Of a DNA stretch of 64,000 nt, positions 2,036 through 16,234 are shown one piece after another (positions within the stretch are counted from its first letter, which is position 1; the number at the start of each line of letters is the position of its first letter). Under the pieces are notes generated by a model that ran no database searches, was not told where the DNA came from, and saw nothing but the letters and a program-made list of their open reading frames with translations. The position numbers and the translations under genes were made by a program. Origin of the DNA: an uncultured Prevotellaceae bacterium (GTDB lineage Bacteria > Bacteroidota > Bacteroidia > Bacteroidales > Bacteroidaceae); the NCBI GenBank assembly GCA_900315455.1, contig OMZE01000037.1:19249-83248 (forward strand), given 5' to 3'.

Positions 2036-3523
2036 CTATCTGATTACAGTTTCTACACGTTTGCCGGACATGATGTCACGGGCAACAGTCCTTGCATCGA
2101 GTTTTACAGGCTCACTGGTGAAATCTGGTGTATTGAAAGAGAAGAGTGTCTCGTCGTAATACGCCCAAGGGTTGCGCTGTGGCAACAAGAAAGGTTTCCC
2201 CATCCTTCCATCCTTATCGACATGCGCCAGATAAAGATTGGTGTAATAGCCATTCCCCCTACGCGACGTGAACACTATCCACCGAGAGTTGCTGCTCCAG
2301 TTATGGAAACTGTCGGTATCGTCGCTGTTCACCTCATCCAATGGCCGTGCATCACCCGTCTGCAAATCGAGCAGCCATTGGTCGGCCTCTTTGTGCCAGA
2401 TGGGGAAACACCCGTAGTCGGACATGGTAAACAGCAAGAAACGTCCGTCGTAAGAAGGACGTGGGTGATTGGCACTCTTGCCCATCGCCCGGGCATTGAA
2501 AATCGTATCCACCTCGCCCGTAAAGACACCCTTGTCGGGGTCGAATCCTACTTTGCACAGATTATACTTGATATCCTTGTATTCAGAGGGAATCATTCTC
2601 GACTCTGCAGCGCAGAAATAAAGCGTCTTTCCATCAGGCGAGAAAACGGGATAATTCTCATAATGTGATTTCGTGGCCACCAGTGAGTCGAACAAAATCT
2701 CATGCTTGTCGGGCGAGTAGACCAAGACATCGGAAGCATGGTCGAACACCTCTATCCGCTCTGCTGCCACGGCATGGAACGACTGGTTGGTCTTATTGGT
2801 GGAATAGGCCACGAAACGGCCCGAGGGATGCCAATAAGGATAGACCATCGACCCTCCGAGACTGTCGTTCTTGGCTTTAAGCAGTTCGGTTGTCTCTCCA
2901 TGATGAATGAGTGTCGCCCCTTGCTCACCACGGATATGGAACGTGAAGTTGTCGGGGTTGGTATGGTTGGCGACATGGCAGTTGAGGCATGCCCCCGGCG
3001 CTGCCGTATTCTCAAGGATAGCCGTCTCGCTGAAGGAAGACAACTCGCGCTGGTAGATTCCCATCCTCCCATACACCTCATAGCCCGGTGGTATGCGGCG
3101 GTAGGTGAGTCCCCACTCTCCGAGGCTGTCGCTGCTCACCTCTACCTTGAAGTCACGGTATTGGGTCCATGCACCATTGTTTTCCACACACACGGTGAAC
3201 GTGAGTGCAGCACCTCTGTTCTGCCGTGTCAGTTGATGCCATTCGTCGACATCAAAGTCGGCATAGCAGCCATTGACATGTATTTCGCCACCTTTCTCGC
3301 CACGCACCACCACATCCATAGTCTGGCTTTCCCCATAACAATTGAAATTGAGTGGGGCAATTTCTGCCGGGATGGTGACTCCGGCATAGTCGGGAAATAT
3401 GGGAGGCAGTTGCTGCACTACAGTGGGGTTCTCCGGCATCGACGAGCACGACACCATCAGCCACGTGGCCGTGCAAACCATCATGCCCCATATCAGAAGA
3501 CGATATCTCTTTTTCGTTCTCAT
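2036..3523 (-). CDS. CxxCH-containing PD40/TolB-like lipoprotein, copy A
   Basis: The product is 495 residues with a lipoprotein signal (WLMVSC, lipidated Cys26), so it is probably outer-membrane anchored. A beta-sandwich-like N-terminal region (about 40-135) is followed by a single CLNCH motif at Cys179-His183, the pattern for covalent c-type haem. Residues about 220-480 contain PD40/WD40-like blades (YPVFSPDGKTLYFCAA, HPRPSYDGRFLLFTMSDYG, SRWIVFTSRR). It follows the DUF6057-like gene with a one-base gap, an arrangement repeated exactly by copy B. NhaC lies 7 bases downstream. A surface or periplasmic sensor or electron-transfer protein would fit, but neither function nor haem attachment is proven. 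Confidence 0.8.
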   Translation of the reverse strand: MRTKKRYRLLIWGMMVCTATWLMVSCSSMPENPTVVQQLPPIFPDYAGVTIPAEIAPLNFNCYGESQTMDVVVRGEKGGEIHVNGCYADFDVDEWHQLTRQNRGAALTFTVCVENNGAWTQYRDFKVEVSSDSLGEWGLTYRRIPPGYEVYGRMGIYQRELSSFSETAILENTAAPGACLNCHVANHTNPDNFTFHIRGEQGATLIHHGETTELLKAKNDSLGGSMVYPYWHPSGRFVAYSTNKTNQSFHAVAAERIEVFDHASDVLVYSPDKHEILFDSLVATKSHYENYPVFSPDGKTLYFCAAESRMIPSEYKDIKYNLCKVGFDPDKGVFTGEVDTIFNARAMGKSANHPRPSYDGRFLLFTMSDYGCFPIWHKEADQWLLDLQTGDARPLDEVNSDDTDSFHNWSSNSRWIVFTSRRGNGYYTNLYLAHVDKDGRMGKPFLLPQRNPWAYYDETLFSFNTPDFTSEPVKLDARTVARDIMSGKRVETVIR

Positions 3524-3524
3524 G

Positions 3525-5339
3525 TCAATAAATCTCCTTCATTTGTTGCTTTCCTTTCTTCTCCTTTCCCTCTTGGCTCACCAACATATACGACCAAAAA
3601 GTGTTGGCCAAAGGTGGCATCGACAGCGAAGGGTCGTTCGGGTTCTTCATATAGAGATTGACGAACTGCGTAAGCAGGTTGCATGTGGCAGGCTCAATGC
3701 TCCACGGCATCCCTTCGAAACTGCCATGCTGCTGGGTCCACTGCATCACCAAAGCCTGTTGGTAGGCATTGGGGATGCGGCTGAACTTGGCATACTTCCC
3801 CAAAGGATAATACTCGTTGAACCGCTCCAAGTCGCGCTGCAACAACTCATAGCACATCAAGTATTCGAAAGCCATGCGGTTGTCGTAATTCTGCACGAAG
3901 AGAAGGCCGAGCATCTGGTCCATTTCTGTATCGCTGAAGAGAAAGTCCTGTTTCTTCTGTCTGTAGGCCCTCAGCCTGCCGTAAACCGGGTCATCATTCA
4001 CTTTCCCCTCCTTGATGATTGTTTTCTGCTCTTTCGCCCACTTGCGGTAGAACAACGATTTCTCCAACATTCTGAGATATTTCATTGCCACCTCATAATG
4101 GCCGTTGATGATATTGCACTCTGTGATACGCTTCGTGAGCCGCCCACTTTTTCGGTGGTTGGGAATAGCCTCCTGAGCCTCAAAAGCATAGCGTTCGGCA
4201 TCATTCACCATTCCCAGCCAATAAAAGGTCTCGCCAGGAGGCAACGGCGAAGTCATGTCGCGCTGGAAAGAGGGGAAAAGTCCCTCTGCCCCATTCTGGT
4301 AGAACTCGAACATCCGGTCGCTCAGTTGCCCTGTCATGGCGAGAGCCAAGTTCACACACGCCACATCGAAAGGTTTCGAAGGCTGTCTCTTCTCCGCTTT
4401 CCCGATGACCTTGTCCCACTGACGGGTCCTGACGAGGAAGTCATACTCAATGAGGTCGTATTTCAAGGTATCGTAGGCATGGCCGATGAAGAACCACCCG
4501 CCTATGACCAGCACCGCCACCTGTGCCATGACCGCCAACGACTTCTTGCCTATTTGCGGCAACAGTGGTGCCACCAACGGCAACAAGACCGTCACCACCT
4601 CGATGGCCGTCTGCATGACAGGCTGGTATACGGGGTATCGATAATACTCGATGCCCATGAACAGGTTGAACAAAGGATACTGAAGTCCTTTGGTCAGCAA
4701 GAGAATAAGCGCAATGCAATAGACGACAGACGCCACTCCCCATGCCAGTCCTTGCAGCGAACGCCCCTTGAAGGCCTCGAAAAGCAATATATACAGAGGC
4801 ACCATCAGTACACAAGGACCGAAGCACCAATACATCAGTGGCATGCCGATGAGGATAAAAGCGATTTTCCACCATTTGCGTTTGGGAAAGCATTCATCCC
4901 CGCTCACCACATGATAGAGAAGTATGGCACAAAGAGAGGCCAGGATGGCGATAAAGAAGCCAAGCATCACATTTTCGTCGCCGGCATGAGCCCACAGCAA
5001 CAGCGAAGGAATGAAACTGAGCGGATAATAGACATCGGGCGTCGCATGACGCCGCATCAAGCCCCATACCAAGCACTGCACCAGCACATAGACCAATGCC
5101 AGCAGGCAGGCACCCAGCACCGGGATATAGTTGAACTGGGTGATGAACTCGGCCACATAGCACGCCAAGCCACCTGGCACTGCCACCCTTTCGAGGAAAT
5201 AATGCCCATCGAACAGAAACAACTGATATTGTTCTTGAAACGACAGCACCGACATGTAGGGTATTGCCCAGAACAACGCCACCGCCACGCCAAAGAGCAC
5301 GGTGAGCAGTATTTTCCAATATTTCGAGATTATTCTCAT
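3525..5339 (-). CDS. DUF6057-like polytopic membrane protein, copy A
   Basis: This is about 604 residues. The N-terminal half has about nine to eleven hydrophobic helices, starting with an uncleaved segment around LFGVAVALFWAIPY. The motif FQEQYQLFLFDGHYFLERV followed by PGGLACYVAEF is shared with copy B and recalled from DUF6057 proteins of Bacteroidetes. The C-terminal half (about 300-600) is soluble and helix-rich with repeated short hydrophobic helices, TPR-like in look. ATG at 5339 is preferred to a GTG two codons upstream (5345). The gene sits 41 bases after the DUF4369 lipoprotein gene and one base before its CxxCH-PD40 partner. No catalytic motif is seen and no function is known to me; close pairing with the lipoprotein suggests one complex. 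Confidence 0.8.
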   Translation of the reverse strand: MRIISKYWKILLTVLFGVAVALFWAIPYMSVLSFQEQYQLFLFDGHYFLERVAVPGGLACYVAEFITQFNYIPVLGACLLALVYVLVQCLVWGLMRRHATPDVYYPLSFIPSLLLWAHAGDENVMLGFFIAILASLCAILLYHVVSGDECFPKRKWWKIAFILIGMPLMYWCFGPCVLMVPLYILLFEAFKGRSLQGLAWGVASVVYCIALILLLTKGLQYPLFNLFMGIEYYRYPVYQPVMQTAIEVVTVLLPLVAPLLPQIGKKSLAVMAQVAVLVIGGWFFIGHAYDTLKYDLIEYDFLVRTRQWDKVIGKAEKRQPSKPFDVACVNLALAMTGQLSDRMFEFYQNGAEGLFPSFQRDMTSPLPPGETFYWLGMVNDAERYAFEAQEAIPNHRKSGRLTKRITECNIINGHYEVAMKYLRMLEKSLFYRKWAKEQKTIIKEGKVNDDPVYGRLRAYRQKKQDFLFSDTEMDQMLGLLFVQNYDNRMAFEYLMCYELLQRDLERFNEYYPLGKYAKFSRIPNAYQQALVMQWTQQHGSFEGMPWSIEPATCNLLTQFVNLYMKNPNDPSLSMPPLANTFWSYMLVSQEGKEKKGKQQMKEIY

Positions 5340-5386
5340 CGTCACAGCATTGCTACATATTCCTTAATCTATGGGATAATGCCCCA

Positions 5387-6016
5387 TTACTCATCGTAAA
5401 CCGTCACCACACTGCCATCGGGCATGCGTTTGGGATAACTAACAGGATAAAGGCCACTGAGGAACTCACGCAGCGCCCCTTGGCTGAGCGTGGATGCCAG
5501 ATGGCGCGTATACCGCTTGTATCGCTGATGCACGCTGTCGGCCTGTGCCAGCAGTTCATGAGCCTTCACCGTGTCGGTCTGGGCCATCTCACGGGCTGCC
5601 TGCCGCAATGTCGCCATCTCACGGGTATGGTTGATTGTTGCCTTCTTCCACACCTCCAGCGAATCATTGCCCGGTGTGCCCGACGATGAACTCACGCGTC
5701 CTATCCGCACATTCAGGTCGCCCGGTTCGGTGACCACCAGCAGGCGTTCCACCCCGTCGCGGAAATGATAGTCCATCAGCAGTTGCGCCATATGGCAAGT
5801 ATCGGTGGCAAACTCAAACTTCCCGTCCTTGATGTAGACCGAATCCACTGCCTCGGCCGAATTGTCCTCCAACGGTACGAGGAAAATTTGCTTCCCGTTC
5901 AACCGGTCATCATCCACCACACCATGAATGCGGCAACTACCCTGCGGGGTCGAATTGCAGGCAGCCATCAAGACCACCGTGATGAGGGCACACAGCCCCA
6001 TGTTCTTTCTGTTCAT
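5387..6016 (-). CDS. DUF4369-domain lipoprotein
   Basis: The product is 209 residues with a lipobox ending LMAAC (Cys20). Residues about 27-115 resemble the DUF4369 beta-sandwich: a short IHGVVDD strand, then GKQIFLVPL, VDSVYIKDGKFEF and a GDLNVRIG strand. In Bacteroidetes this domain is usually fused to a C-terminal AhpC/TlpA thioredoxin. Here no thioredoxin domain follows, only a charged helical tail, so it is a stand-alone version. It lies inside the operon between the two lipoprotein/DUF6057 pairs, 58 bases after copy B and 41 bases before the DUF6057-A gene. A structural or regulatory accessory role is inferred only from position. Confidence 0.75.
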   Translation of the reverse strand: MNRKNMGLCALITVVLMAACNSTPQGSCRIHGVVDDDRLNGKQIFLVPLEDNSAEAVDSVYIKDGKFEFATDTCHMAQLLMDYHFRDGVERLLVVTEPGDLNVRIGRVSSSSGTPGNDSLEVWKKATINHTREMATLRQAAREMAQTDTVKAHELLAQADSVHQRYKRYTRHLASTLSQGALREFLSGLYPVSYPKRMPDGSVVTVYDE

Positions 6017-6074
6017 ATCTATTGTTGTTTTCTCTTCATATCAGATTCCGCCCCCATGGAGGCGCGTGAACCAT

Positions 6075-7541
6075 CTATTTTATTTTCACTTGTATTCTCT
6101 CTTCCGAGGTCACTTGCTGCTGCATCTCACGCATATCAACGTTCACTTTGCTCTTGGTGAAATCGGGCACGTTGTAGGCGTCGAACAGTCCGGCATAATA
6201 TCTGAGCGGATTGCGCTGAGGCAGCAAGAAAGGCTTGCTCACGTGCCCGGCATCATCGACACAGGCGAGATAGAGTTTGGTATAAGCCCCGTCTTCTCTC
6301 TTGGAAGAAAAGACAAACCAATGGCTTCCTGAAGCCCAATTGTGAAAACTCTCCGTCTGGTCACTATTCACCTCCTTCAGGTTTCTCGTCTCACGTGTTT
6401 CGAGATTCATCAGCCAGAGGTCGGCATCACGCTGTGCCACAGGAAAATTGCTGCGGCTCGACACGCAATACATCAGCCACCGTCCATCGAATGAGGGGCG
6501 AACAATGGTATAACTCCGATTGTCGCGCTGGCCATTGAGCAATGTGTCGGCTTCCGTTCCAAAAGAACCTGTGGCGGCATTGAATGGCAACGCCACCAAA
6601 GAGCATTTCACTTTCTCATATTCTGCAGGCACATCGCAAGGTTTCGACGAACTGTAATAGAGTGTCTTGCCGTCGCTTGAAAAAGCGGGGAAGATTTCCA
6701 GGTCATCTGTCTGTAGCAAAGGCGACAAAATCAACTGGTTGCTCCTGACATCCAGCACGACAATGTCGCTGAAGCGATGGTATACCTCGAGATTGCTCTT
6801 CGCCCCAGTGAAGAAACTCTGATGCACCGTATTCACCGCATAGGCACAATAGTTGCCCGAGGGATGCCAATAGGCATAACTCCCTGCCGCCTTGGTGGAG
6901 TCGGTCTTGGTGTTGAGCCAGGCCTGCCGTCCGTCGACCTGCACCATCGTCCCCCCACCCTCGCCACGAATCTGCATCGTCAGCCAGCGGGGGTCGGTGC
7001 GGTTGGGTGTATGGCAATTGAAGCACCTCCCTGGCAATGCCGTCTCCGTAACGATTGGAGACTCATCGAAGGTGTGGATATCGCGTTGGTAGATACCGAT
7101 ATTCCCGCCCACCTCGTATCCCGGTGGAATGCGTCGGTAGGTGAGTCCATAATCATCGAGGGCATATTGACTCACATTGATGGTGAAGTCGAGATATTGC
7201 GTCCATTCCCCTCCCGCCCTTGCACACACTGTGACGGAGAGTTGTCCGCCCACATTCTGACGGGTTAGTTGATGCCATTCCTCTATATCGAAGTCGGCCC
7301 ATTGGCCATTGACATGCAACTCGCCCCCACGGCTCCCCCTGACCGTCACATCCATACGGTCGAAACGGGTATCGGCCATGTTGAAGTTGAGCGGAGCAAT
7401 GCCTGCAGGCACCGTCACCCCTACATAATCGGGATAGATGGCAGGGAGTTGGCCAGCCATCTGTGGATGGTCTGGAGAATTGGAGCATGCCGTCAGCAAG
7501 GAAAAAAGCCAGGCTACGATAATCAAGTGTTGTTGTCTCAT
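6075..7541 (-). CDS. CxxCH-containing PD40/TolB-like lipoprotein, copy B
   Basis: The product is 488 residues and a paralogue of the gene at 2036-3523. It has a lipobox LLTAC (Cys19), a CFNCH motif at Cys173-His177, the shared YRRIPPGYEV block just before it, and PD40-like strands further on (FPAFSSDGKTLYYSSS, RPSFDGRWLMYCVSS, HWFVFSSKREDG). The order of elements is the same as in copy A although the proteins have clearly diverged, so the duplication is old rather than an assembly artefact. It starts one base after the DUF6057-B stop. If the CxxCH is used, the cell needs cytochrome c maturation genes, which are not in this window. Function unknown. Confidence 0.8.
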   Translation of the reverse strand: MRQQHLIIVAWLFSLLTACSNSPDHPQMAGQLPAIYPDYVGVTVPAGIAPLNFNMADTRFDRMDVTVRGSRGGELHVNGQWADFDIEEWHQLTRQNVGGQLSVTVCARAGGEWTQYLDFTINVSQYALDDYGLTYRRIPPGYEVGGNIGIYQRDIHTFDESPIVTETALPGRCFNCHTPNRTDPRWLTMQIRGEGGGTMVQVDGRQAWLNTKTDSTKAAGSYAYWHPSGNYCAYAVNTVHQSFFTGAKSNLEVYHRFSDIVVLDVRSNQLILSPLLQTDDLEIFPAFSSDGKTLYYSSSKPCDVPAEYEKVKCSLVALPFNAATGSFGTEADTLLNGQRDNRSYTIVRPSFDGRWLMYCVSSRSNFPVAQRDADLWLMNLETRETRNLKEVNSDQTESFHNWASGSHWFVFSSKREDGAYTKLYLACVDDAGHVSKPFLLPQRNPLRYYAGLFDAYNVPDFTKSKVNVDMREMQQQVTSEERIQVKIK

Positions 7542-7542
7542 G

Positions 7543-9195
7543 TCAGTTTCCTCCCATCATTTTCCTCACATACTTTCCGTAGGACGATGTCGTGTTGGTG
7601 CCATTCGACTGAATGAACCTCACAGCATCCTGATAACCCCGGGGCATATACTGATAGCCGCCATACTGCTGTACCCACGACATATACTGCATGAACTCCT
7701 GTGGCTTGCCCTTGAGCAGCAACTCACCCATGAAGTAATCGAGCGCCATCGTGTTCTCCGCATTATCGATGAAAAGCAGCCCCAGCATCTTATGTATCTC
7801 ATCGTAACTATAGAGAAAATCATTCTTGAATCTCATCTTCCGTTTTTTGCCATAAAGCGGATGCCTGTCGACCTTGGCATCCTGATACAGCAGTTGGCAC
7901 ATCTCGTTGGCCCACCCACGGTAGAAGAGCGTATGCTGGAGCAATGCCAGATGCTTGGCCGCCAAGGCATACTTTCCGTTTACTATCAGGCATTCCACCA
8001 TACGTTTTGTGAATCGTGCACTCTTGCGTGCATTGAGGATCGACTCTTGCAGGTCGTGCATATAGCGGTAGGCCGAGTTGACCATGCCCAGATGCCAGAA
8101 CGCCTCTGCCGTGGGGATGTTGGAGGTAAGGTCGCGTATCATCGGCATCAGCAGTGCATCCTCACCACTCTGGTAGTAATCGAACATGCCGTCGGCCAGA
8201 CGACGCTGCTTGGCGAGGGCGAGGTTGACGCAATTGCACGAGAAAGCATTCTCCACCTGATATTTATCGGCCCGGCTGATAATCTCGTCCCAGCATTCCT
8301 GCCGCACGAGATAATCTTGCATGAGAAGTTCGTACTTATCCTTGTCGTAGCCATGGTGTATGGCACAGAAAGCCAAGACGAAGACGGCAACCGTTGACAG
8401 CCCGCCCCAGGTTTTTTCTGCTATCGCCATCGTCTTGCGTTGCGAGGCACCTGGCAGGCAGTGGACGAGGGCAGTGAGAGCAACCACCGCCAACGGAAGA
8501 ATAGCCTGCAGCACATGGTAATGCAAGGGTATGCGGTAGTAGTTGAGTCCGAGGGCTACCGACTTCAGCGGCCATTGCAAGAGAAAGAGTGCCGAAGCCC
8601 AATGTGTCACAGCCATCAGTACCGGCATCCACCAACAATGCCGAGGTGTCCTCAGCACCCTCAGCACCACATACACCCACGCCAAAGGTCCTGCCGCAGC
8701 ATAGAGCAGAGGCACTGCCACAAGGTCGGGCCACGAAAAGCGGCACCTATCCCATCCTTGGCTTGCCCATGCAGCCGTCATTACCATGAGCAGAGCCACG
8801 ACATAAGACAACAGCACACTCTCATCGCCCATCAGCCAGAGCAGCAAAAGCGAAGGAATGAAACTCAGCGGATAACACCACGACGACAGACTGTTGGCCT
8901 GCAACCGCATCAACTTCCATGTGAGCCACTGCAGCAGCACATACATGACAGCCAGCACCAAGGCTCCTGCCCACTTCAGGTAATAGAACTGCACGAAGAA
9001 CTCGCCTAAATAGTCGGCCAACCCGCCGGGCTGCATCACCCGTTGCGTGAAATAATCGTTGGTAAACAGGAACATCTGGTATTGCTCTTGATAAGACTGC
9101 GCATGGGGATAGCATAGCCACCAAAACAAGAAGACCAGCACTCCGAAGAGTGCGGTCGCAGCAGTTTTCATGTACACAGTCCTTGTTGTTCCCAT
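7543..9195 (-). CDS. DUF6057-like polytopic membrane protein, copy B
   Basis: This 550-residue paralogue of the gene at 3525-5339 shares the motif SYQEQYQMFLFTNDYFTQRV followed by PGGLADYLGEFFVQF. It has about nine or more hydrophobic helices in the first 270 residues and a soluble helical C-terminal half. It is the first gene of the operon. The ATG at 9195 is only a few bases below the predicted transcription start of the promoter at 9203-9234, so the ATG at 9171 (MKTAATALFG) may be the real start. Against this, the residues between the two ATGs align with the N-terminus of copy A. The pairing with a CxxCH lipoprotein one base downstream is the same as in copy A. Biochemical role unknown. 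Confidence 0.78.
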   Translation of the reverse strand: MGTTRTVYMKTAATALFGVLVFLFWWLCYPHAQSYQEQYQMFLFTNDYFTQRVMQPGGLADYLGEFFVQFYYLKWAGALVLAVMYVLLQWLTWKLMRLQANSLSSWCYPLSFIPSLLLLWLMGDESVLLSYVVALLMVMTAAWASQGWDRCRFSWPDLVAVPLLYAAAGPLAWVYVVLRVLRTPRHCWWMPVLMAVTHWASALFLLQWPLKSVALGLNYYRIPLHYHVLQAILPLAVVALTALVHCLPGASQRKTMAIAEKTWGGLSTVAVFVLAFCAIHHGYDKDKYELLMQDYLVRQECWDEIISRADKYQVENAFSCNCVNLALAKQRRLADGMFDYYQSGEDALLMPMIRDLTSNIPTAEAFWHLGMVNSAYRYMHDLQESILNARKSARFTKRMVECLIVNGKYALAAKHLALLQHTLFYRGWANEMCQLLYQDAKVDRHPLYGKKRKMRFKNDFLYSYDEIHKMLGLLFIDNAENTMALDYFMGELLLKGKPQEFMQYMSWVQQYGGYQYMPRGYQDAVRFIQSNGTNTTSSYGKYVRKMMGGN

Positions 9196-9304: not shown

Positions 9305-10837
9305 TTACTTTTTCTTGAATGCCCACCATGTGGCCTCCGACCAACTACCTGTACCGGGAGCGGCATAGATGAGTTTCATGTGGCTGCCATCAAGTTGCAT
9401 AATCTCGAAGTCGGTAGGTTTCTCGCCACCGCCGTTGATCTTGAACGGGAAGAGGATGCTGCCGGCATCGGTATGCAGTGTACCCACTGCCCAAGCGGCC
9501 TGTGAACCGTCGACAGAGGGGATGAAACGGTTGCCACCATCCCATGCCGTGATCTCGAACTTACCCGAGCGGATTTGTGTGCCATTGGCATCAAAAGAAG
9601 CCACGGTGCCTTTCTCGTAATTGAACGTCATATAGGCGCCAGCATCTTCCTCGCCAGTAGCAGCACCAGTGTCGGAGTGGCCAAGTTGTCCGGTCAGGTC
9701 GGCTGGCGGACAGCCCCACCAGATACCGTTACCATCGTTGACGAAACTGGCACCATCGCCAGGAGCATAGCCAAGGTTACCCCAAACGGCTCCATCGCCA
9801 CGGAACTCGGTGTCCCAAGTCCATGATTTCTCGGAGTAGTTGGTGAGGGAGCCATCGCCGTCACTCTCACTCTTGAATGCCCACCATGTGGCCTCCGACC
9901 AACTGCCTGTACCGGGAGCAACATAGATGAGTTTCATGTTGCCACCATCGAGTTGCATAATCTCGAAGTCGGTGGGTTTCTCACCACCACCATTGATCTT
10001 GAACGGGAAGAGGATACTTCCGGCATCGGTATGCAGTGTACCGAGCGACCATGCTGCCTGTGAGCCGTCGATAGAAGCGAATGAGCGGTTGCCATCGTCC
10101 CATGCGGTGACGCGGAACTTACCCGAACGAATCTGTACGCCGTCTGAAGCGAAACATTTCACGTTGCCATCCTCATCGAGGACCATATAGGCGTTGGGGT
10201 CTTCCTCGCCAGTGGCCACACCCGTGTCGGAGTGGCCAAGTTGTCCGGTCAGGTCGGCTGGCGGACAGCCCCACCAGATACCATTTCCATCGTTGACGAA
10301 ACTGGCGCCATCGCCAGGAGCATATCCGAGGTTACCCCAAACGGCACCATCGCCACGGAACTCGGTATCCCATTTCCAAACCTTTGTGCCAGAGGCACTG
10401 CAGAGGAATTTCATATCCGAAGAGAGTTCGGTGGGCACGAACACCACCACGTCTTTCTTGATTTCCACCTTTGTACCATCCTTGTCGAGGGCACGTACGT
10501 AGAATGTCTGGTTGGGGTTGCCACCACGCTTCGGCTGAATCTTGAAATTGCCGCTGAAGCCACTGGCCAGGATGTTCTCATTGCCATCGGCATCGAAATT
10601 GTAGACCACCACTGAATAATAAGGGGCGCCCACATTATAGAAGAAGAAGTTTCCGTCGGCAGCCTCGGTATAGGAACCATCCTCATTCTGCGCACACTGT
10701 CGGAAGGAGAACTCGCTCTCCACCACCTGATTGGTCAGTGAAGAAGCAGGTGCACTGATACTGTCTACAGAAGGATCGCAAGCGGTGAGCAATCCTACGG
10801 CAGCAAATAGTCCAAATATTATCTTTTTCATTTTCAT
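9305..10837 (-). CDS. Surface lipoprotein of a SusCD locus with internal tandem duplication
   Basis: The product is 510 residues with a lipobox LLTAC (Cys20). Residues about 25-150 form a beta-rich domain probably used as a spacer. Two nearly identical modules follow, at residues 156-322 and 341-508. Each begins WDTEFRGDGAVWGNLGYAPG and ends WSEATWWAFK, and each is rich in Trp, Asp and Gly, as in carbohydrate-binding beta-sandwiches. Its place directly after susD (29-base gap) is that of SusE/SusF-type surface glycan-binding proteins, so glycan binding is the best guess. I do not recognise the exact family. A strong terminator follows. The ligand cannot be deduced. Confidence 0.75.
   Translation of the reverse strand: MKMKKIIFGLFAAVGLLTACDPSVDSISAPASSLTNQVVESEFSFRQCAQNEDGSYTEAADGNFFFYNVGAPYYSVVVYNFDADGNENILASGFSGNFKIQPKRGGNPNQTFYVRALDKDGTKVEIKKDVVVFVPTELSSDMKFLCSASGTKVWKWDTEFRGDGAVWGNLGYAPGDGASFVNDGNGIWWGCPPADLTGQLGHSDTGVATGEEDPNAYMVLDEDGNVKCFASDGVQIRSGKFRVTAWDDGNRSFASIDGSQAAWSLGTLHTDAGSILFPFKINGGGEKPTDFEIMQLDGGNMKLIYVAPGTGSWSEATWWAFKSESDGDGSLTNYSEKSWTWDTEFRGDGAVWGNLGYAPGDGASFVNDGNGIWWGCPPADLTGQLGHSDTGAATGEEDAGAYMTFNYEKGTVASFDANGTQIRSGKFEITAWDGGNRFIPSVDGSQAAWAVGTLHTDAGSILFPFKINGGGEKPTDFEIMQLDGSHMKLIYAAPGTGSWSEATWWAFKKK
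9314..10372 (-). repeat. Tandem duplication of about 500 bases inside the lipoprotein gene
   Basis: Two copies, 9872-10372 (first module) and 9314-9817 (second), are separated by a short linker. Long stretches are identical, while differences are mostly at third codon positions plus a small variable block. The duplication is therefore recent but not a sequencing duplicate. Confidence 0.9.
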
Positions 10838-10866: not shown

Positions 10867-12627
10867 TTAGTTGTTCCAGTCGGTATATTCGCATTCCGAC
10901 GTCGTCCATCCTTCGTTCTGCTTCAAAGCGCCTTCGGAGAGGATGATTTCGGTCTCGGGGAATTTCTGGAATCCAGCAGTAGCGTTGTAGCGTGCAGCAT
11001 ATCCGCCATTGTGGGCGAAGTTGGTAGACGGGCGACCGCAGTAGTAGCAAGCCTGGTCGGTCTGTTTCTCCAAAGCGGCGGCAGCGATATGCCAGCGGCG
11101 GATATCATTGAATCGCAAGCCTTCAAAGGCCAACTCCCAGCGGCGCTCCCTCTGCAGGGCTTCAAGGCTGTAAGACGGGATATCAGCCAGTCCGGCACGA
11201 GCACGGAGTTTGTTGATGCCACTCACGTCGCCTTTCAACTCGCTCTGCATGAGCAGTACCTCAGCAAAGCGGATGAGCACCATGTCGTGTATGTTGCCCA
11301 ACTGGAAGTTTTCTTCTCCTGAGATTTCCCAGTTGCCAGGATACATCTGGTTTTCGAATGTGCACCAGTAGTCGCCGTTCTCCTTCTTCGAAGTGATGGG
11401 CGAGAGTTTCTTTCCATAGTAGTCGGTCTCCTGCACGAAGTCTTCCCATCCACCTTTGGTATATGCGGGAAGGTCGTTGACATTGACGATAGTGGCATCG
11501 AAACGGAGGTCACGTGGCTCGGCGTTCTTCCAGTCGGTCACGAGGTTGGTAGCCACAGGGCCGGCACCCCATCCCTGTCCGAAGGGGAAGGTGTTGGCAT
11601 AAGCCTGTCCGCCACGCACACCGAAGTGCAGGGAGTAGCCATTGGCGTAACCGATAGTGGTCTGCCAGGAAGCCATTTTGTTGAACTTCACGGCGAACAT
11701 TGCCTCTGGGTTGACACCATTGTCATCCTCCACCCACTTCAGGCCTTGTCCTTTGGTGTAGTCGTAATCCTCGACGGTGCAGCGATTGGTGTAAGCCCAG
11801 AGGTTGCGGAAGTCGGGAACCAGAGAATAGCCAGAGTTGTTGACGCAGTCGTCGATATAGGCGATGACCTGGTCTTTGGTGAGTGTGGTACCGTCGGGCA
11901 GTTCCACTGAGGTAAGCGGGTTGTAGTTGGTGCTTACCAAATCGGCAATCTTGTCGCCATTGCAATAGAAGCCGGTATAGAACAGCCAGCAGCGACCGAG
12001 CAGTGCCTCTGCACAGTATTTGTCGACATGTCCATCGGTCTTACGCACCTTGGGCATGATGTCGCTGGCATCGCGCAGGTCCTGAAGGATTTGTCCCCAC
12101 AACTGTGCTGCTGTAGGCGGGGTCACCTCTTCGGGGCGTTTTGCGGTTACCATGAGCGGCACGTTTCCATACATCGAAGCCAGTTCGTAGTAGAAGAATG
12201 CTCTCATGAAGAGGGCCTCTCCCCTGGTCTGTGCTTTCTCCACGGGGTCGAAATCCACTTTCTCGAGTGCTTCGAGCAAGGTATTGGCACGGTTGATGCC
12301 CTGGTAGCGCTGCTGCCAGAAGTCGACGGTCATATCCGTGTTATAGTTGAGGATGAGGTCCATGGCCTGCATCAGTTTGTCGTTTGTACCGCCACCACCA
12401 AATTGGTCGTCGCTGGCCAGCATTGCGTAATAATGCCAGGTCTCCTGCGGGTTGGCATTCACAGCATTCAGGTTCTGATAAATACCGGCTAGGGCCTGAG
12501 CAGCATCTTCAGCATTGACAGGGAAGTTGGAAGTGTCCTTCGAAGTCATACTCATCGAGTCCAGATCGCAGGAAGCCAAGGTACCTGCGAAAAGTGCTGC
12601 GCTTAATAAATATGCTATTTTTTTCAT
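10867..12627 (-). CDS. susD: SusD/RagB-family surface glycan-binding lipoprotein
   Basis: The product is 586 residues with a lipoprotein signal ending LASC (Cys20). The TPR-bearing SusD fold is indicated by the segments QGINRANTLLE, RGEALFMRAFFYYELASMYG, RFAEVLLMQSEL and the C-terminal RRWELAFEGLRFNDIRRW signature. SusD proteins act as a lid on the SusC transporter at the cell surface and capture the oligosaccharide. The length is normal and no segment is missing. It lies 42 bases after the susC locus and 29 bases before the third gene, so the three form one operon. The glycan target is unknown because no glycoside hydrolase is included in the operon. Confidence 0.95.
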   Translation of the reverse strand: MKKIAYLLSAALFAGTLASCDLDSMSMTSKDTSNFPVNAEDAAQALAGIYQNLNAVNANPQETWHYYAMLASDDQFGGGGTNDKLMQAMDLILNYNTDMTVDFWQQRYQGINRANTLLEALEKVDFDPVEKAQTRGEALFMRAFFYYELASMYGNVPLMVTAKRPEEVTPPTAAQLWGQILQDLRDASDIMPKVRKTDGHVDKYCAEALLGRCWLFYTGFYCNGDKIADLVSTNYNPLTSVELPDGTTLTKDQVIAYIDDCVNNSGYSLVPDFRNLWAYTNRCTVEDYDYTKGQGLKWVEDDNGVNPEAMFAVKFNKMASWQTTIGYANGYSLHFGVRGGQAYANTFPFGQGWGAGPVATNLVTDWKNAEPRDLRFDATIVNVNDLPAYTKGGWEDFVQETDYYGKKLSPITSKKENGDYWCTFENQMYPGNWEISGEENFQLGNIHDMVLIRFAEVLLMQSELKGDVSGINKLRARAGLADIPSYSLEALQRERRWELAFEGLRFNDIRRWHIAAAALEKQTDQACYYCGRPSTNFAHNGGYAARYNATAGFQKFPETEIILSEGALKQNEGWTTSECEYTDWNN

Positions 12628-12669: not shown

Positions 12670-14445
12670 TTATTTAACCTCTGAAATGATAACCGAACGG
12701 CTCATCTGAGGATCGTTGAAGTAAAGGTTCTCCACACCGCCCTTAGAATCGAGTACGAGGCTGCTTGCCGGCACGCCATACTCATTGATGAGGAGGTCGT
12801 AGACATTCTTGGCACGGTTCTCGGCAAGCCACTGGTTGCGGTCGGCTGTACCTGTAGCCCTGTCGGCATAACCTATGACATAGTATTTCTTGCCAGGGTT
12901 CTGCTTGATCATCTGGGCGATGGTGCTCAGGTTGACACGCTCGCGGTTGACGATTTCTGTCTTGTTGATTTCGAAGTTGACGAAGTAGGGATAGGTAACC
13001 ACCTTCTCATCGGTGATGACTGTAGTGGTGGTTGTAGCCGGTTGGTTCTTCAGGCGCTCGTTGTCGGCACGCAGGCGGTTGAGTTCACCATTGAGGCGGT
13101 CGATCTCGCTATTGTCGGTCACATACTCCACTCTGGTCTGCACGACAGGATCGGCAGCCTTCTTCTCTCTCTTGTCCTTGAACTTCAGGTTCACACCCAC
13201 CATATAGGTACGTGGCTGTGGGTAGTTGCCGACATCCACTCCGGTAACCCAAGGCTCATTGCCATTGAGTGCCATACCATTCTCAGGATCCATACCTTTA
13301 TAATTGGTGAAGGTGAAGAGGTTCTGTGCTGCAAAGTAGACACGGAGTTGGCTGAAGGGGCTGGTGCTCTTGAGCAGGCTTGCGAAGTCGTAGCCCAGAG
13401 TGACGTTCTGGATGCGGAAGTAGGTAGCGTCCTCCACGTAGATGTCGGACACCTGCTGCCAGTTCACACCGATGTTACCAGGCTTGAGCATAGGATACTT
13501 GTTGGAGGTACCCTCACCATGCCAGTAGTTGAACACTTCGGTAGTGTAGTTCTCGAACTGTGAGTCGGTGTTCTTACGCCATGAGCGTACCACCTCGTTG
13601 CCGAATGAGCCGTAAGTAGTCACTGAGAAATCGAAGCCTTTATAAGCCAGATTGAATGAGGCGCCCAGTGTGAAATCGGGATGCGGGCTACCCAACTCGG
13701 TCTTGTCTTCAGGAGTGATGACACCGTCGCCGTTGACATCGACGAACTTCAGGTCGCCGGCTTGAATACCGGTACCTTGGAGCGAGTTGGCGGCACTGCC
13801 ACCGCAGTTCTTGCTGAGATATGCCTGCAGGTCGCTCTCGTTCTGGATGACGCCCTCTGTCTTATAGCCATAGAAATAGCCGATGGGGTGTCCTTCCTCC
13901 ATACGTGCCATGTGGCCGGTATTCTGTGCGATGAGGTCATTACCACCGGTGACGAACTTATTGGCATTCTTCACCTCGGTCACTTCGTTCTTGTTCTTGG
14001 CGAAGTTGACATTGATACCATATTTGAAATCACCGATGTTGTCTTGCCATCCGATGGCAGCCTCAATACCGGTGTTCTTCACGGTACCTGCATTGGCATG
14101 GTATCCATTCTGTCCGACGATACCCCACAGAGGTACCCAAAGGAGCAGGTCCTTGGTCTCTTTGTTGTACCACTCGAAGGTGGTGGAGAGGCGACCGCCG
14201 AGGAAGCGGGCGTCAAGACCCACGTTGGTCTGCTGAGAGGTCTCCCAAGTCAGGTCAGGATTCTCAATGTTGGCAGGATAAGCACCTTGTGTATAAGAGT
14301 CTTTGGTACTGCCGAAGGAATACTGGCCATAGTCGCCGAAGTCGAAGTTAGACTTCCACTGCAGGGAAGGAAGGTTGTCGTTACCGTTCTGTCCCCAGCC
14401 TGCGCGGAGTTTCAAGAACGACAGCCAACTCTTTGAACTCTCCAT
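12670..14445 (-). CDS. susC: SusC barrel C-terminal fragment fused to a coiled coil and OmpA peptidoglycan-binding domain
   Basis: The first ATG gives 591 residues, but the SusC frame is recognisable upstream to about base 14470 (WVISNEKF precedes the ATG). Residues 1-422 are the second half of a SusC beta-barrel and end in the usual beta-signal YMVGVNLKF. The protein does not stop there. A charged coiled coil follows (about 423-470, SEIDRLNGELNRLRADNERL), then a Thr-rich linker and an OmpA-like domain (about 487-590). The OmpA domain has a GYADRATG motif with Asp528 and Arg544 in a RAKNVYDLL helix, the positions that bind diaminopimelate in OmpA. This would tether the transporter to the cell wall. 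The 5' part is the gene at 14453-16234; together they are one gene broken by a deletion and frameshift. Confidence 0.8.
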   Translation of the reverse strand: MESSKSWLSFLKLRAGWGQNGNDNLPSLQWKSNFDFGDYGQYSFGSTKDSYTQGAYPANIENPDLTWETSQQTNVGLDARFLGGRLSTTFEWYNKETKDLLLWVPLWGIVGQNGYHANAGTVKNTGIEAAIGWQDNIGDFKYGINVNFAKNKNEVTEVKNANKFVTGGNDLIAQNTGHMARMEEGHPIGYFYGYKTEGVIQNESDLQAYLSKNCGGSAANSLQGTGIQAGDLKFVDVNGDGVITPEDKTELGSPHPDFTLGASFNLAYKGFDFSVTTYGSFGNEVVRSWRKNTDSQFENYTTEVFNYWHGEGTSNKYPMLKPGNIGVNWQQVSDIYVEDATYFRIQNVTLGYDFASLLKSTSPFSQLRVYFAAQNLFTFTNYKGMDPENGMALNGNEPWVTGVDVGNYPQPRTYMVGVNLKFKDKREKKAADPVVQTRVEYVTDNSEIDRLNGELNRLRADNERLKNQPATTTTTVITDEKVVTYPYFVNFEINKTEIVNRERVNLSTIAQMIKQNPGKKYYVIGYADRATGTADRNQWLAENRAKNVYDLLINEYGVPASSLVLDSKGGVENLYFNDPQMSRSVIISEVK

Positions 14446-14452
14446 GAATTTC

Positions 14453-16234
14453 TCATTCGAGATGACCCAAGTTCAGACGTCCGAAGTACGACAGTTTGGC
14501 ATCATAACTACTGGGATAACCGTCGACGACAGCCGATGTACGGCCAGTCATGTTGTGCATATAGGCGTGTGTGGCATCACCGAAGATATTGCCCGATGCG
14601 GTGGCGTTCACCGACTCACCATAGTGCGGACGCGACTTCGAGTACTCCATACCACCCATGATGTCGAAGTGGTTCAAGCCAAGATCAAACCTGTAGTTCA
14701 AGGTGTTGACCAAGTTCCAGTTCCATCCGAGAGAGAGGTTGTCGCTGGTCTGGTCGGTACTGCGGAAGCCGCCCGAGTTGTCGTGGATGCGGAATACCGG
14801 AAGGTAGCACCACCAACTGCTCGACCACTGCTTGTAGGACACCTGTCCGCGATAGGTGAGGTTCTTGATAGGCTGCACCTCGACATACCCCACGGCATTG
14901 AGATTGAAACTCTTGCTCTTGTTGTTGCCTGCCTGATTGTAGACCACAGCAGCAATGGGGTTGCTGGTAAAGTTGTTGTATGGGAACCAACCATTGGTAC
15001 CCGAGGTGTTGATATCATTCCACATGAAGTAGTCGCCAGCGGCATTATATACAGGTACACAAGGGTTGGCACGCAGCATGTTGGAGAGGTCGTTGGCATA
15101 TTGGTTGCCAATCTGGATACCCTGGCTCTGACGATGCTGGAAGTAGAGGTTCTCACCAATCTTGATGACATCCCTGTCGCCCACTCTGTAGATGACATGT
15201 TCTGAATTCAGGCGGAAAGTGAAACGGCGGAAGTCGGACTTCACCGGACCACCGAACACACCATCCTGGTATTGGTAACCCACGCCAGTAGAGAATTTCG
15301 ACACTTCGCCACCGCCTGCAAGGTTGATGGAGTGGTTGGTTACGATAGAATTCTTATGGCGGAACTCCTCTACCCAGTTAGTGCCTTTGTTGGTGCCATT
15401 GCGGTAGGCCTGAAGAAGGTCGGCATCGATATACCTTGACCAGTCGTAAGGAGAGCCACCGGCATTGTGGTTCACCAAGTCCATCACGTCCATATACTGT
15501 TTGGCGTTGAGAGGTTCTGGCATCTTGTATACGTTCTGCCAGCCCACGTTTCCGTCGTAACTTACCTCTACCTTGCCTTCCTTACCCTGCTTGGTGGTGA
15601 TGAGGATCACACCATTTGCAGCCGACGAACCATAGATAGCAGCCGAAGCAGCATCCTTGAGCACGTCGATACGCTCGATGTCGGCAGGGTTGAGGGCGTT
15701 GATGTCGCCGCCAGCCACACCGTCGATGACGTAGATAGGATTGGTGCTGCTGTTGGTATGGCTTTGGAGAGCGCCGAGCACCTGTGTGGTGTTGAGTTTG
15801 GCAATGTTCTCACCCTTCACCTCCAAAGTGGCACCAGTGACGAGTTTTTTCTTCTGCACGCCATAACCCACAACCACAACTTCATCGAGCACGTCGGAGT
15901 CTTCGGAGAGGGTGACGCTGAAAGTGCTTTGGTTGCCCACAGGAATTTCCTGTGTGGTGTAACCAATGTAGGAAATCACAAGCACAGCACCAGGCTGCAC
16001 ATCGAGAGTGAACTTACCGTCGAAGTCGGTAACCGTTCCGTTGCTGGTGCCTTTCTCCATGATGGTAGCCCCGATGATAGGTCCCATCGCGTCGGTGACG
16101 ACACCACTGACTTTCCTTGACTGCTGAACCGCAGTAGCGGCCACATCAGACGTTTCGGCATAAGCCGGAGCGAAATACCCCAGTCCTATGCAAGCGCCCA
16201 TTAGCAGCACTGTCTTTCTGAAATTCAAATTCAT
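14453..16234 (-). CDS. susC: SusC/RagA TonB-dependent transporter, N-terminal fragment (frameshifted)
   Basis: The product is 593 residues: a signal peptide, a carboxypeptidase-regulatory-like domain (about 40-112), a TonB-box-like DEVVVVGYG (117-125), the plug, and the first barrel strands. It ends abnormally at GRLNLGHLE because the frame changes at about base 14470; the other frame continues as WVISNEKFMESS in the downstream ORF. Compared with SusC proteins I know, about 40 residues around the conserved DGSSRF region are absent at that joint. The plug also lacks the PGV...RGxGT block between LGALQSHT (160) and NPIYVIDG. The gene begins the operon with susD. As read here it cannot encode a working transporter; real decay and assembly error are both possible. 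Confidence 0.8.
   Translation of the reverse strand: MNLNFRKTVLLMGACIGLGYFAPAYAETSDVAATAVQQSRKVSGVVTDAMGPIIGATIMEKGTSNGTVTDFDGKFTLDVQPGAVLVISYIGYTTQEIPVGNQSTFSVTLSEDSDVLDEVVVVGYGVQKKKLVTGATLEVKGENIAKLNTTQVLGALQSHTNSSTNPIYVIDGVAGGDINALNPADIERIDVLKDAASAAIYGSSAANGVILITTKQGKEGKVEVSYDGNVGWQNVYKMPEPLNAKQYMDVMDLVNHNAGGSPYDWSRYIDADLLQAYRNGTNKGTNWVEEFRHKNSIVTNHSINLAGGGEVSKFSTGVGYQYQDGVFGGPVKSDFRRFTFRLNSEHVIYRVGDRDVIKIGENLYFQHRQSQGIQIGNQYANDLSNMLRANPCVPVYNAAGDYFMWNDINTSGTNGWFPYNNFTSNPIAAVVYNQAGNNKSKSFNLNAVGYVEVQPIKNLTYRGQVSYKQWSSSWWCYLPVFRIHDNSGGFRSTDQTSDNLSLGWNWNLVNTLNYRFDLGLNHFDIMGGMEYSKSRPHYGESVNATASGNIFGDATHAYMHNMTGRTSAVVDGYPSSYDAKLSYFGRLNLGHLE

Follow-up and report, generated by a model that had tools for sequence, protein, structure and literature searches.

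The locus raises the question of why a gene for a SusC-type transporter should run on beyond the point at which such proteins usually end. It lies in a 64,000-nucleotide stretch of DNA from an uncultured Prevotellaceae bacterium, the whole of which was analyzed and is called the window here; its features are collected in Table 1. A first-pass annotation had proposed that the SusC barrel end continues in frame into a coiled coil and an OmpA domain with Asp528 and Arg544 in place, and on both points it was correct. The C-terminal ORF is free of stops through the β-signal YMVGVNLKF and carries 169 further residues after residue 422, in the order Lys/Ala-rich linker, coil, Thr-rich stretch, and OmpA domain; unfused relatives in L040, L041, and L042 terminate at the β-signal position. 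TIGR04056 (SusC/RagA) matches residues 1 to 422 (E value of 2.2e-102; 344 bits, below the curated cutoff of 368 because the ORF is half a protein), and PF00691 matches residues 491 to 581 (3.9e-14). The gene is not an ordinary SusC, as its C terminus lies beyond the β-signal, nor a whole OmpA, as the barrel before the linker is that of a SusC and not the small OmpA barrel; the tail is an OmpA-like domain by its PF00691 match and its ligand Asp and Arg. An AlphaFold2 model of the tail (mean pLDDT, 80.6; pTM, 0.63) has a helix at model residues 14 to 35 (pLDDT of about 76 over residues 21 to 30), followed by strand-helix-strand-helix-strand-strand, which is the OmpA-like order; both linkers fall below 50. 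The tail profile matched 30 distinct solved sequences (E ≤ 0.001), the best being 9uu2 (2.2e-27), and all 30 are named OmpA, Pal, MotB, or other OmpA-like proteins.

Table 1. Features of the fusion locus in window coordinates
Feature	Position	Strand	Remarks
Third gene of the unit, probable surface lipoprotein	9305..10837	-	No Pfam match
SusD-family lipoprotein, partner gene of the fusion	10867..12627	-	PF14322, PF07980
C-terminal half of the SusC-OmpA fusion gene, 591-aa ORF	12670..14445	-	TIGR04056 and PF00691 matches
OmpA-like domain, to the C terminus	12673..12975	-	Pfam match 12703-12975
Arg544 codon	12814-12816	-	Inside the OmpA-like domain
Asp528 codon	12862-12864	-	Inside the OmpA-like domain
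Coil helix of the tail, ORF residues 445-466	13048..13113	-	AlphaFold2 tail model
β-Signal YMVGVNLKF	13180..13206	-	Usual end of SusC proteins
N-terminal half of the same gene	14453..16234	-	CarbopepD_reg_2, partial plug, first part of the barrel
107 bp missing, frame shift	14469..14470		Comparison with 7 intact relatives
75 bp missing, in frame, within the plug	15758..15759		Comparison with 7 intact relatives

The window has two ORFs and not a single open frame from signal sequence to C terminus: the C-terminal ORF is one half of the gene, and the N-terminal half is a separate ORF. Two stretches, of 75 and 107 bp, are present in all seven intact relatives compared and missing from the window. 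One of these relatives is the orthologue in genome G009 (76% DNA identity to the window); the further six (L161 to L165 and L170) also keep both stretches, the nearest being L162, at 90.5% identity. The N-terminal ORF ends at a stop because the 107-bp gap shifts the frame, and given the two gaps the full fusion protein cannot be made from the gene as assembled. The N-terminal ORF scores 390 bits against TIGR04056, above the cutoff, and its plug match begins at plug position 55, the first part being missing; in the intact relatives L162 and L035, CarbopepD_reg_2 is present and the plug match spans positions 5 to 107 of 107. Taken across its two ORFs, the window gene has the TIGR04056, plug, and CarbopepD_reg_2 matches of a SusC/RagA protein. 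Comparison of the window with its relatives gave dN/dS values of 0.06 to 0.10 for the barrel part of the C-terminal ORF (six relatives), 0.08 to 0.17 for the tail (six of six comparisons), and 0.08 for the N-terminal ORF (two of two). The tail is under purifying selection, and with values this low across the gene, any loss of function is probably recent. The window copy looks disrupted, whether by real mutation or by an assembly fault, and function is therefore best read from the relatives.

The SusD gene expected of a SusC lies directly downstream, and a gene similar to the third gene of the unit stands in third place at 23 of the 24 loci examined with a window-type SusC (class A below). Of 60 fusion loci examined, 59 have their nearest downstream ORF of more than 110 residues on the same strand, 2 to 172 nt away; the 60th is at a contig end. 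The third gene in the window has an internal duplication, with two nearly identical halves in which WKWDTEFRGDGAVWGNLGYAPGDGASFVNDGNGIWWGCPPADLTGQLGHSDTG or a near-copy occurs twice. Behind the SusCD unit, positions 2036 to 9195 (minus strand) apparently hold two copies of a gene pair, made up of a DUF6057 protein (PF19529 at 7543 to 9195; 3525 to 5345 resembles it by eye) and a lipoprotein of roughly 490 residues (2036 to 3523 and 6075 to 7541).

The first-pass annotation called for a database search for the architecture, and it was found in other genomes. A tail profile built from five rows was run against 398 genomes of the genus, that of the window included, with up to eight candidates scored per genome; it identified 55 places at E ≤ 6.3e-57 in 44 of the 398, after which scores drop from 192.9 to 128.3 bits. 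Frames of 1,164 to 1,313 residues hold 51 of these places, and the remaining four comprise the window's own, at 600 residues, and three others (482, 638, and 295 residues) whose coordinates reach the start of their contigs; 11 genomes have two tail places each. A contig scan, from which the best 80 of 187 loci were kept, gave fusion ORFs at 77 of the 80, 72 of them at least 1,150 residues long. The other three are L192, truncated within the tail by a contig end and followed by a SusD-like start, and L221 and L222, which are stand-alone OmpAs. The two counts are not additive, because many of the loci are the same contigs. In a search of 301 genomes of the family (E ≤ 1e-28), the tail was found in three genomes of a second genus, g43, in frames of 1,235 to 1,259 residues. 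Among the matches listed for 393 genomes of the order (E ≤ 1e-28) and 296 of the phylum (E ≤ 1e-17), none outside the window lies in a frame of more than 450 residues; these wider searches, with up to 8 to 12 candidates per genome, reach this tail and not independent fusions with other OmpA domains. A plasmid search matched 31 records, none of which covers 80% of the query. Chance is excluded as the source of the architecture, since it is found in other genomes and the tail is under purifying selection. The carriers are some Prevotella, many from ruminant stomachs: among the titles of the best 80 of 187 loci, counted without a ruminant baseline, a ruminant host or a part of the stomach is named in 23, 36 carry the label RUG, which we take to mean rumen uncultured genome, and 21 have neither.

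The tail is carried by window-type SusCs, by three other SusC groups, and by one Oar-like receptor. We assigned 79 distinct fusion ORFs of at least 1,100 residues to classes by best match: 40 to class A (the window-type SusC), 19 to B, 12 to C, 5 to D, 2 to E, and 1 to F, where class B includes L039, which has another tail, and the class D tail is also different. CarbopepD_reg_2, plug, and OmpA matches are all present in L037, L092, L116, and L124. Class C (L038) is the Oar-like receptor, with a PF25183 barrel and CarboxypepD_reg but no plug match, and the partner gene of L038 encodes a BACON-domain protein. The residue aligned to Arg544 is Arg in all 84 distinct fused tails; that aligned to Asp528 is Asp in 83 and Ser in L039. 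The L039 gene (positions 3378 to 6752, plus strand) is a class B SusC with a third type of OmpA tail, and with its ligand Asp replaced by Ser that tail is perhaps not wall binding. Class D (L124 to L128) has a second tail type, with a different C terminus, on another SusC-like receptor; it is 90 to 93% identical to L124 across five genomes, was found with its own profile in 4 of 299 genomes of the genus (G366 lying outside that draw), and is apparently a separate fusion. The genes adjoining the fused SusCs in L037 (12148 to 13497, minus strand) and L039 (2024 to 3346, plus strand) we take, by eye, to be polygalacturonase-like, which hints at pectin as the substrate there.

Recombination with an ompA gene, as the first-pass annotation had suggested, survives in part. 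The nearest stand-alone relatives of the tail are OmpAs of genus g41 (L137 and L138; 417 and 424 residues), in which a small barrel precedes a like coil and OmpA domain; a tail tree of 118 rows (LG+G4, quick search) joins them to the tails of classes A, B, C, E, and F with a support of 87. Because this coil and domain already occur together in the nearest stand-alone OmpA, the join probably reflects a swap of the barrel that precedes them, a reading in which the direction is tentative. What fell was a recent fusion with the genome's own ompA: no near-identical separate ompA was found in the genome, and its own OmpA is 32% identical to the tail. The class D tails (five genomes) and the L039 tail sit elsewhere in the tree, among other OmpAs, which suggests two more origins, on long branches with moderate supports.

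Tail and barrel differ in their histories, and the tail has at times been exchanged between transporters. On the tail tree, classes A, B, C, E, and F come together in a single 78-row group (support of 85, the branch not being starred), and the distribution of barrel classes takes 11 changes, where 6 is the minimum and shuffling gives 64.2 on average. With clustering this strong, a tail generally goes with its barrel class, and free mixing is ruled out. A tree of the barrels, built from 78 rows of classes A, B, E, and F and 14 unfused SusCs with class C left out, is arranged differently. Unfused SusCs lie among the fused ones there, and the fused class A label changes at least five times on starred branches. 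The barrel data reject the tail clade of 18 rows that includes the window (P = 6.2e-9) and the tail clade of L093, L096, and L103 (P = 7.1e-5). Among 17 hand-chosen pairs, identities depart in both directions: window and L083 share 81% in the barrel and 89% in SusD, versus 73% in the tail, and L036 and L093 share 80 and 83% versus 69%; conversely, window and L078 share 49 and 43% versus 86%, and L093 and L103 share 34 and 25% versus 86%. L083 and L102 show no split (64, 66, and 68%). Because SusD goes with the barrel where the tail departs, the exchanged piece would be the tail alone, as in gene conversion. Full-length fusions paired within one genome have tails more alike than barrels in 10 of 10 cases (54 to 87% versus 24 to 36%), part of which arises because the domain changes more slowly. 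A speculative extension is that the tail serves as an exchangeable address cassette, a coil and wall-binding module moved by recombination among SusC, Oar-like, and other TonB-dependent transporters (TBDTs), which might gather the transporters of one cell on the wall in shared, coil-matched, TonB-served clusters.

As to what the tail does, we consider it rather likely that it holds these TBDTs to peptidoglycan in cis through a predicted wall-binding domain. SusC-type barrels have the end of their last strand in the periplasm, and OmpA-type domains bind diaminopimelate through their conserved Asp and Arg, although an OmpA domain is not necessarily wall binding in every protein; these two pieces of family knowledge are the reason for reading the tail as a hold on the wall. 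By this topology the tail would lie in the periplasm, where the coil could bridge some of the gap and might pair inside a SusC2D2 dimer, and Asp528 and Arg544 of the OmpA domain would grip peptidoglycan by its diaminopimelate side chain. A transporter thereby held to the wall could be kept close to TonB contact sites, could be helped to resist the pull of TonB, and could be lost less in vesicles. The matter bears on the way TonB gains access to transporters across the wall and on whether TBDTs are free or wall fixed. A natural tether in cis, present in some family members but not in close relatives, would open these questions to a test in which the tail is deleted. The movement of tails among barrels is also relevant to how barrel assembly tolerates sequence added beyond the β-signal.

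An alternative that we regard as possible, if unlikely, is that the tail mainly tethers the outer membrane and shares that load with OmpA, the transporter being an abundant carrier barrel. The nearest relative of the tail is indeed an OmpA, and OmpM is reported to unite tethering with nutrient uptake in one protein (PMC10628300); part of PMC12204202 describes no pal genes found in Bacteroidetes but putative TolB-Pal fusions. Ordinary stand-alone OmpAs are kept all the same, including in the window's own genome, and most of the listed matches below the score gap of the genus search lie in frames of about 400 residues. Fused genes number one or two per genome, in 44 of 398 genomes (eight candidates scored per genome), so a special role suits the tail better. 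Improbable, in our judgment, is a tail for pairing or assembly, with the coil linking transporters to one another and the OmpA domain of lesser importance: an Arg-Leu-Asn in the coil is invariant in 27 of 27 rows, and similar tails occur on different TBDTs of one genome, but a pure pairing device would not need the ligand residues that are kept in nearly every fused tail. An artifact, either a chimera of susC and ompA contigs or functionless decay, is barely credible despite the two gaps, one of them frame shifting, and the 8% contamination stated for the assembly, given the long frames that hold 51 of 55 places, the partner genes kept beside the fusions, the selection on the tail, and a genome with no near-identical separate ompA; recurrence in other genomes rules out a chimeric contig as the source of the architecture.

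Among the literature matches listed, where subscription papers are mostly outside coverage, none describes a TBDT with a C-terminal OmpA domain, in agreement with the first-pass annotation, which knew of no characterized example. A survey of 34,893 TBDTs sorts them by N-terminal domains (PMC6434023), and the portion available of PMC12578637 has nothing on OmpA or peptidoglycan. The fusion resembles a SusC/RagA TBDT (TIGR04056) in its CarbopepD_reg_2, plug, SusC-type barrel, and adjoining SusD gene and differs in adding a coil and an OmpA domain where such proteins normally end. With the OmpA family (PF00691) it shares the succession of barrel, coil, and OmpA domain with Asp and Arg; L137 in particular has a similar coil and identical last residues, SRSVIISEVK, but it has 417 residues and a small barrel where the fusion has that of a TBDT. 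Oar-like TBDTs (PF25183 barrel and CarboxypepD_reg) supply the barrel type of class C fusions such as L038, which, unlike them, end in the tail of the SusC fusions and, in L038, have a BACON-domain partner. Two further comparisons come from other systems: RmpM of Neisseria, which has an OmpA-like domain, and OmpM of diderm Firmicutes, which is not known to be TonB dependent or of the OmpA type. The wall-binding RmpM is reported to occur in complexes with TBDTs, and growth on lactoferrin falls when it is mutated; the same source proposes that TBDTs gather at wall gaps (PMC8497027). Unlike the fusion, RmpM is a separate protein that acts in trans in another phylum. OmpM combines a nutrient channel and a wall tether in one polypeptide, as the fusion is predicted to do, but in the form of a trimeric porin with a periplasmic stalk, according to PMC10628300.
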